Positions 53,392 through 55,059 of a stretch of 64,000 nt of DNA are shown here, in pieces. A program made the position numbers and the translations under genes. This stretch comes from an uncultured Pirellulaceae bacterium (GTDB lineage: Bacteria; Planctomycetota; Planctomycetia; Pirellulales; Pirellulaceae). Under the pieces are notes generated by a model that was not told the DNA's origin, made no database searches, and worked only from the letters and a program-made list of their open reading frames with translations. Location: positions 1 through 64,000 of the forward strand of contig CALKCK010000021.1 of NCBI GenBank assembly GCA_938083195.1, given 5' to 3'. Numbering within the stretch: position 1 is the first letter of the stretch; each line of letters begins with the position of its first letter.

Positions 53392-54099
53392 ATGGGTTCT
53401 CCAATAAAATCCGAACATTCTCTGCCAGAAGATTTTGGCAACGTCGTCCGTTTGTTTCCACTGCCTAACGTTGTGCTGTTTCCCGGCATCGTTCAGGCGC
53501 TGCAACTTTTTGAGCCTCGTTACAAGTCACTGGCTGAAGATGCAATTGAATCCGATCAATTGATCACCATGGGATTGATTGATTCCCAATGGAAAACTGA
53601 GCAAAGTGACGTACCATCGATTGCGAAGACTGTCTGCATTGGTAGGGTTTTATCGCACACGAAGCTCGAGGATGGCAGATACAATATTTTTCTGGTTGGG
53701 GTGAGTCGAGCGGAGGTCGTTTCTGAGTTAGTTACAGAAACTCCTTACCGCATGGCGGAAGTCCGTTTGATCGAAGAGCAACTTATTGAAGATCATGAGT
53801 TGTCGGTTCTCAGAACCGAGGTCTGTGCGAAATTTCGAAAGCTTGCGAGCTATCGCACTGGATGGCATCAGGATGCACTCGACCAATTTCTTGGAGAGGA
53901 TTTGCCATTAGGCCAACTGATTGACATGGTTTGCTATTCTTGCGGAGCTGGTATCCCTGAACAACAACTGGTACTCGAAACTGTGGATTTGGCTGAGCGT
54001 GGTAACGTTGTCCTCGAAATTTTAAACGGGCAAATCAGAGCGTCGGAAAGCGAGCAGAGTTCGACGCAGGATTTCCCCCCCAGTTTCAGTCTGAATTGA
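53392..54099 (+). CDS. Lon-type substrate-binding (LON) domain protein
   Basis: A 235-residue protein made of the Lon N-terminal domain only: VVRLFPLPNVVLFPGIVQALQLFEPRYKSLAED, then VCIGRVLSHTKLEDGRYNIFLVGVSRAEV. The following helices complete the domain. There is no ATPase or protease part. Such stand-alone LON proteins are common, and their job is not clear. The ATG at 53392 has AGG close before it. It lies 43 bp after the Bax-inhibitor-1 gene and 58 bp before the SelW-like gene, so all three could share a transcript. Confidence 0.92.
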   Translation: MGSPIKSEHSLPEDFGNVVRLFPLPNVVLFPGIVQALQLFEPRYKSLAEDAIESDQLITMGLIDSQWKTEQSDVPSIAKTVCIGRVLSHTKLEDGRYNIFLVGVSRAEVVSELVTETPYRMAEVRLIEEQLIEDHELSVLRTEVCAKFRKLASYRTGWHQDALDQFLGEDLPLGQLIDMVCYSCGAGIPEQQLVLETVDLAERGNVVLEILNGQIRASESEQSSTQDFPPSFSLN

Positions 54100-54157
54100 T
54101 GTGGCCAAGTGGATCGTTTGGGCGATCGAGAAGCTTTGATTGGTTTTAGGAATTTTG

Positions 54158-54388
54158 ATGGGTGCAAATATGGTTGTCTCAATTGAGTATTGCGAGTCCT
54201 GAAATTATCTTCCTCAGGCTACCAGTTTGGCATCAGTTATTAACTCAGCTTTCAATGTTAAGGTTCAATTGCTCCCTTCGAGCGGTGGTTGTTTTGAAGT
54301 CGTTGCAGATGGCGAACTAGTTTTCTCTAAGAACCGTTTAGGGCGATTTCCCACCGACGAGGAAGTCTTGCTTGCGCTCAATCGCTAG
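54158..54388 (+). CDS. SelW/Rdx-family thioredoxin-like protein with in-frame TGA (probable selenoprotein)
   Basis: A 76-codon gene readable only if TGA 54200-54202 is decoded. Start ATG 54158 follows AGGA (54148-54151) at good spacing. Before the TGA it reads MVVSIEYCES, and after it NYLPQATSLASVINSAF, GGCFEVVADGELVFSKNRLGRFP and DEEVLLALNR, then TAG. This is the whole Rdx/SelW fold in order: strand plus CxxC loop, helix, then the FEV-x-DGEL-x-SK-x-GRFP strands. The TGA sits at the second position of the CxxC/CxxU motif (C-E-S-U), where SelW has selenocysteine and other Rdx proteins have Cys. It would be a small redox protein. Alternatively it is a Cys gene broken by one nonsense change. No canonical SECIS was found by eye. 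Confidence 0.75.
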
Positions 54389-54489
54389 TGTCCTGGCGGT
54401 CTAGATTTTCTAACCGTGCGTTTCTGGCGTGCAAGATTTTCATTGTGCTGCTCCCTTTTTGTTCAGAACCATTGGTGTCAAGGGAATTC

Positions 54490-55059
54490 ATGGATAACTC
54501 GAACCCATCCGTCGTTTTTGAGACTCAGCGTCTTTGGATGGGGCACTGGTATTCTGGGTTGGCAGCGTCGGCGTTAGAAATCTATGGGGATCCTGAGGTT
54601 ACCCAGTGGATTGGCGGGCAAACAGAAACTTGCATCGCAGGGATGGAGGGCCGCATTGCGGGATTGGTGCAGAGAAATAAGAAATTGCCAGATTGTTGGG
54701 GGAGTTGGCCCGCGTTTTTAAAACAGACAAACCAGCTAGTTGGTGCCATGTTAATGAAGCCACTTCCCGATGAGCGTGGGGATTTCACAAAAGAAATCGA
54801 GGTTGGCTGGCATCTTGCGCAGGCGTATTGGGGGCAGGGATATGCCACGGAAGGTGGCCGGAAGATGGTTGAGTTGGGGTTCGCCCAACAAAATCTGCAG
54901 CAAATTTATGCCGTTACCGGGCCGAATAACCATAAGTCGCAGGAAGTTGCCCTGCGGCTGGGGATGAAGCATCAAGGGCTAACGGACAAGTACTATGGTC
55001 AAACCGTGGACTTGTTTAAAATCACAAGCGATGAGTGGTCGGCGATAAGAGTTGAGTGA
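54490..55059 (+). CDS. GNAT-family N-acetyltransferase (RimJ/RimL type)
   Basis: About 189 residues. VFETQRLWMGHWYSGLAASALEIYGDPEVTQWIGG at the N-terminus is typical of RimJ/RimL-type acetyltransferases. GWHLAQAYWGQGYATEGGRKMVELGF holds the acetyl-CoA binding loop (QxxGxG/A form), and IYAVTGPNNHKSQEVALRLGMKHQG is the last conserved segment. It transfers acetyl from acetyl-CoA to an unknown amine. The frame is open from a GTG at 54388, but the ATG at 54490 has AAGGG at good spacing and matches the family start. It begins 101 bp after the SelW-like gene. Confidence 0.92.
   Translation: MDNSNPSVVFETQRLWMGHWYSGLAASALEIYGDPEVTQWIGGQTETCIAGMEGRIAGLVQRNKKLPDCWGSWPAFLKQTNQLVGAMLMKPLPDERGDFTKEIEVGWHLAQAYWGQGYATEGGRKMVELGFAQQNLQQIYAVTGPNNHKSQEVALRLGMKHQGLTDKYYGQTVDLFKITSDEWSAIRVE

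Follow-up and report, generated by a model that had tools for sequence, protein, structure and literature searches.

A SelW-like (Rdx) gene with an in-frame TGA at the selenocysteine site in a Pirellulaceae genome: a probable selenoprotein with a weak SECIS-like hairpin

The window analyzed here, a stretch of 64,000 nucleotides from an uncultured Pirellulaceae bacterium, contains a short, unannotated gene lying among four longer neighbors on the same (+) strand. Upstream are genes for a Bax inhibitor-1 family protein (PF01027, 52623-53348) and, directly adjacent, a LON substrate-binding-domain protein (PF02190, 53392-54099). Directly downstream is a GNAT acetyltransferase gene (PF13302, 54490-55059; its ATG start at 54490 was chosen by eye, the frame tested being 54481-55056), followed by an M42 family peptidase gene (PF05343, 55098-56354). 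These neighbors are conserved. Both upstream genes are present in 7/7 close relatives and both downstream genes in 6/7 (L051-L056, in which both sides are therefore conserved); the locus of the seventh, L057, ends 62 bases past the match.

When the TGA at 54200-54202 is read through, positions 54158-54388 translate into 76 residues with this one in-frame TGA, a TAG stop at 54386-54388 and a match to Rdx, confirming the complete small Rdx/SelW frame proposed in an earlier note on this DNA. The TGA ends a CxxU redox motif (TGC GAG TCC TGA, 54191-54202) near the N-terminus, C12-E-S-U15 in the 76-residue numbering, and this motif was aligned in 111 loci. The note was right that the TGA occupies the selenocysteine site of the CxxC motif, but it is the fourth residue, the place of the second cysteine, and not the second residue. 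The proposed start also needs to be moved. The codon aligned to the ATG at 54170 is ATG, GTG or TTG in 94 of 109 TGA-bearing loci, versus just 10 of 109 for the codon aligned to 54158 (in both counts the loci come in part from the best 80 of 161 found in genome contigs). Because a start codon is conserved at 54170 and not at 54158, the true start is more likely the former; the gene would then span 54170-54388 and encode 72 residues including selenocysteine, beginning MVVSIEYCESU. Bases 8-10 before this start are G-rich, with G in 45 to 54 of those 94 loci, like a ribosome site. The AGGA at 54148-54151, previously taken as the ribosome site, is present, but with the start at 54170 it probably does not serve this gene.

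The read-through product scores well above the cut-offs of two family models, Pfam Rdx (PF10262; 69.1 bits, gathering cut-off 22.6, residues 7-71) and TIGR02174 CXXU_selWTH (59.2 bits, cut-off 34.2), and also exceeds that of NCBIfam NF041051 (91.8 bits, cut-off 88). The last, SelTWH_Campy, is described as a "SelT/SelW/SelH family (seleno)protein", so that the family name already says (seleno)protein; it is labeled Campy, whereas the relatives of the window gene are labeled planctomycetes. A sequence search against solved structures matched the Rdx-type proteins 2fa8 (Atu0228), 2ljk (C17orf37), 3dex, 2obk, 2oka, 2p0g and 2ojl over most of the domain. The best of these, 2fa8 (E 1.2e-9, residues 7-70), carries Cys at the site where the window gene carries TGA. 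By this likeness the product is predicted to have a thioredoxin-like fold; a redox function is predicted as well. In the draft genome to which the window belongs (4.8 Mb, 91.9% complete), this gene, with one TGA inside, is the sole Rdx match.

The earlier note had asked whether relatives carry TGA or a cysteine codon at this site. Homologous loci were compared by tblastn: the window's own, 30 from a phylum search and 80 from genome contigs, the latter being the best 80 of 161. Of these 111 loci, 109 have TGA at the aligned codon, one has TGC and one TGT. The counts are not independent, as L045, L046, L047 and L049 encode identical proteins and some loci may occur in both sources. All seven of the closest named relatives (73-85% identity, among the best 80 of 161) carry TGA; they are metagenome-assembled genomes labeled Pirellulaceae, Planctomycetaceae, Mariniblastus or Planctomycetota. 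A TGA copy is also found in all five other genomes drawn from the same genus. Two of these copies (83% and 73% identity) have a 60-mer identical to L052 and L057, both among the seven, and the other three are divergent (46%, 33% and 49% identity). A search of plasmids returned 11 distant records, every one below 60% identity, and added nothing.

The three divergent copies, L161, L163 and L164, are TGA-form genes only 33-49% identical to the window's, versus 73-83% for the close copies in two genomes of the genus; several SelW-like lineages thus occur inside one genus.

Wider draws of genomes give the same picture. In a phylum draw of 294 genomes, an Rdx match was found in 110, and 116 of the 124 matches contain one in-frame TGA; in a family draw of 149 genomes, 68 have an Rdx match and one in-frame TGA is found in 65 of the 78 matches (the window's included in both; by-eye counts). 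Counted by genome, again by eye, the TGA form is present in 108 of 294 phylum genomes and 64 of 149 family genomes, and it is the usual Rdx form in both draws (108 of 110 and 64 of 68 Rdx-bearing genomes). Of the other 13 family matches among the 78, one is partial and 12 (L131-L142) are free of stops. These stop-free genes, found in twelve family genomes of which eight also hold the TGA form, have Pfam scores far above those of the TGA form. In a tblastn comparison to the query, CxxC lines up with the motif in four of the 12 (L133, L135, L138 and L142), two (L131 and L141) give spurious matches and the other six give none. They look, for this reason, like a distinct subfamily rather than a cysteine state of the window gene.

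The frame is maintained beyond the TGA. Over the 58 codons that follow it, differences from the seven relatives are mostly at third codon positions (6, 3 and 24 at positions 1, 2 and 3 in L051, rising to 14, 6 and 28 in L057), a pattern as expected of a translated frame, with no decay past the TGA. What the note had named as refuting evidence, an intact Cys codon in relatives with downstream decay in this copy, is thus the opposite of what was found: the relatives have TGA and the frame is kept.

The genome also has the machinery for making and inserting selenocysteine, the absence of which the note had named as a second refutation. All four components were found above their cut-offs: selA (590.6 bits, contig C7), selB (366.2 bits, contig C1), selD (258.6 bits, contig C40) and tRNA-Sec, the selC product (67.4 bits against a gathering score of 47, contig C17), which ARAGORN also identifies as Sec, with anticodon TCA. 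The selD match lies within one 740-residue frame (L012, 1387-3609, minus strand, on contig C40), whose long N-terminal part resembles NADH dehydrogenase by eye and whose SelD part contains a CxxC (CLGC); Ndh-SelD fusions with a CxxC motif are described in an ocean metagenome survey (PMC2398784). The same cut-offs were exceeded in some of 14 control genomes (selB in 2, selA in 1, selD in 2, tRNA-Sec in 5). A tRNA-Sec match barely above the gathering score is not diagnostic: three family genomes with only Cys-type Rdx and no selA above cut-off (G299, G362 and G393) score 47.2-47.6 against 47.

Across the family draw, selA above cut-off accompanies the TGA form in 59 of 64 genomes versus 26 of 85 without it (by-eye counts; Fisher p 5e-15, with kinship between genomes ignored). 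The five TGA-bearing family genomes that lack such a selA (G390, G434, G295, G353 and G355) all have a tRNA-Sec of 65.8-71.4 bits, and G390, G434 and G355 have selB above cut-off. Neither selA nor selB exceeds its cut-off in G295 (99% complete) or G353 (82%). Assembly gaps are a likely reason in G353. G295 is a case apart: this 99% complete genome of the same family holds the TGA form of Rdx and a tRNA-Sec scoring 65.8 bits, yet neither selA nor selB above cut-off. Among the 108 TGA-bearing genomes of the phylum draw, selA was matched at E 7e-78 or better in 98 (by eye), two of them (G072 and G176) near the cut-off. No selA match was found in seven TGA-bearing phylum genomes (G021, G082, G134, G150, G164, G212 and G264) and only a weak one in three (G050, G061 and G123); these 10 are 59-92% complete (by eye). 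In G004 and G291, the two genomes whose sole Rdx match is stop-free, selA gave no match (by eye).

In bacteria the SECIS is a hairpin that follows closely on the UGA and carries a G in its apical loop. To look for one, 104 distinct sequences from the 109 TGA-bearing loci (drawn in part from the best 80 of 161) were aligned gap-free from the TGA. The 104 share a hairpin spanning bases 15-33 past the TGA, and in 103 of them base 23, in the loop, is G. Pairs in it covary: 18-30 (CG 71, TA 16, GC 6, AT 3) and 20-28 (CG 41, TA 35, TG 25, GC 2, AT 1). Nine pair positions, 14-34 to 22-26, were tested against a control in which synonymous codons were shuffled within columns, keeping the proteins. The observed mean pairing of 0.735 exceeds the shuffled mean of 0.684 (maximum 0.700) and was reached in 0/1000 shuffles, a count that is not a probability because the sequences are related. 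With codons redrawn from flanking columns the mean pairing is 0.548, again with 0/1000 reaching 0.735. The excess over the within-column shuffle resides in pairs 18-30 (0.95 vs 0.67) and 15-33 (0.52 vs 0.42); pairs 20-28 and 22-26 show a slight excess, and the remaining five are within 0.01 of the shuffled mean. Serine at the loop codon is encoded by AGT or AGC in 56 of 56 cases, and at 17 further codons by TCN in 33 of 49. When the 51 bases after the TGA were folded one sequence at a time, in a subset of the 109, the structures were scattered; it was the column comparison with shuffled codons that decided. An Rfam search of 53900-54600 gave no match above gathering score; the two matches up to E 10 are to snoRNA models and far below theirs. 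By its position, loop G and pairing above the shuffled controls, the hairpin of the relatives is a putative conserved bacterial SECIS.

In the window this hairpin would occupy 54217-54235, with the loop G at 54225 (+23), and it is weak. C54219 stands opposite T54233, a mismatch in a pair kept in 7/7 close relatives; the lower stem is broken, but all three pairs at the apex are intact, as is the loop G. The consensus pairing has an energy of +1.5 kcal/mol (isolated pairs included) versus -5.2 to -10.4 kcal/mol in the seven closest relatives, and ranks 105 among 109 loci (drawn in part from the best 80 of 161), four being lower still. The five same-genus copies have hairpins of -4.2 to -8.1 kcal/mol. 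Alone, the window's 19-base stretch prefers another hairpin of -2.7 kcal/mol, and its 60-base context folds into a third structure. The statement that no canonical SECIS stands out by eye thus holds for the window copy, because the hairpin is weakened there; across the relatives it is clear. The mismatch could be tolerated, could be an error in the draft genome or could mark the start of SECIS loss.

The best explanation, and one we hold with considerable confidence, is that the gene encodes a SelW-like selenoprotein of the bacterial type, its UGA at 54200-54202 being read as selenocysteine. It draws directly on the frame and its motif, the conserved TGA, the machinery genes and the hairpin conserved in relatives; from these we infer that selenocysteine is inserted in this species. 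SelA, SelD and tRNA-Sec would produce the charged tRNA, SelB would deliver it to the ribosome via the hairpin just past the UGA, the UGA would be decoded as selenocysteine, and the small product would act as a thiol/selenol oxidoreductase through its CxxU redox pair. With TGA in 109/111 loci, sel machinery in the genome and no sign of decay after the TGA, the selenoprotein reading of the earlier note is supported. The points against it are the weak window hairpin and the TGA-bearing genomes without selA (5/64 in the family; 10/108 in the phylum with none or a weak match). A recent Cys-to-stop mutation that turned a cysteine gene into a pseudogene needs only one base change from TGC or TGT, the codons of two of the 111 aligned loci, but it is contradicted by TGA in all seven close relatives and in the copies of five same-genus genomes, as well as by the conserved frame past the TGA and the conserved hairpin of the relatives; it was rejected as extremely improbable. 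Equally hard to credit is a changed genetic code or general read-through making TGA an ordinary sense codon. The frame is indeed open through 54200-54202, but TGA serves as the stop of the upstream gene (53392-54099), selenocysteine machinery is present, and where a cysteine codon takes the place of TGA, in two loci, it is TGC or TGT; this reading too was rejected.

A hairpin of which only three apical pairs and some isolated pairs lower down are left would mean either that SelB accepts a far weaker SECIS or that selenocysteine insertion is being lost while the frame is intact, alternatives that together we consider rather unlikely. Somewhat less likely again is the specific case of an inherited selenoprotein gene that is losing selenocysteine insertion, its SECIS weakened by the stem mismatch so that this species makes little of the full-length protein. 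The window hairpin is the weakest among close relatives, it has broken a stem pair held in all seven, and the five same-genus copies retain theirs, all of which speaks for such a loss; yet the frame is intact with mainly third-position differences, the apical pairs and loop G are still there, four of 109 loci rank lower, and the mismatch, a single base, may be a mistake in the draft assembly. The two explanations, selenocysteine insertion and SECIS loss, overlap.

Bacterial SelW-like selenoproteins have long been known. They share the CxxU motif with the window gene and nothing essential differs (PMC1794560, PMC2398784). According to a 2006 survey (PMC1794560), SelW-like is one of the selenoproteins for which Sec-using organisms have hardly any Cys homologues, or none. 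The 2008 Global Ocean Sampling study (PMC2398784) reports 427 SelW-like selenoproteins, with CxxU, and 56 Cys homologues. SelW-like stands at the top of its table of selenoprotein families in prokaryotes, and it describes SelW-like and SelD as the most widespread. The claim of a probable new selenoprotein therefore stands for the gene copy, which is new and unannotated, but not for the family. No open-access report of this particular member was found among the papers listed (20 of 199 in the broader search), subscription journals being mostly outside the coverage. The window gene would be a further planctomycete member of the bacterial SelW-like selenoproteins, one whose own SECIS hairpin is weak, and beyond that member and that hairpin it contributes little new knowledge of them. 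As an example it is clean: standard annotation can be expected to overlook such a gene or cut it short at the TGA. If selenocysteine insertion is indeed being lost here, the gene would be a snapshot of early SECIS decay.
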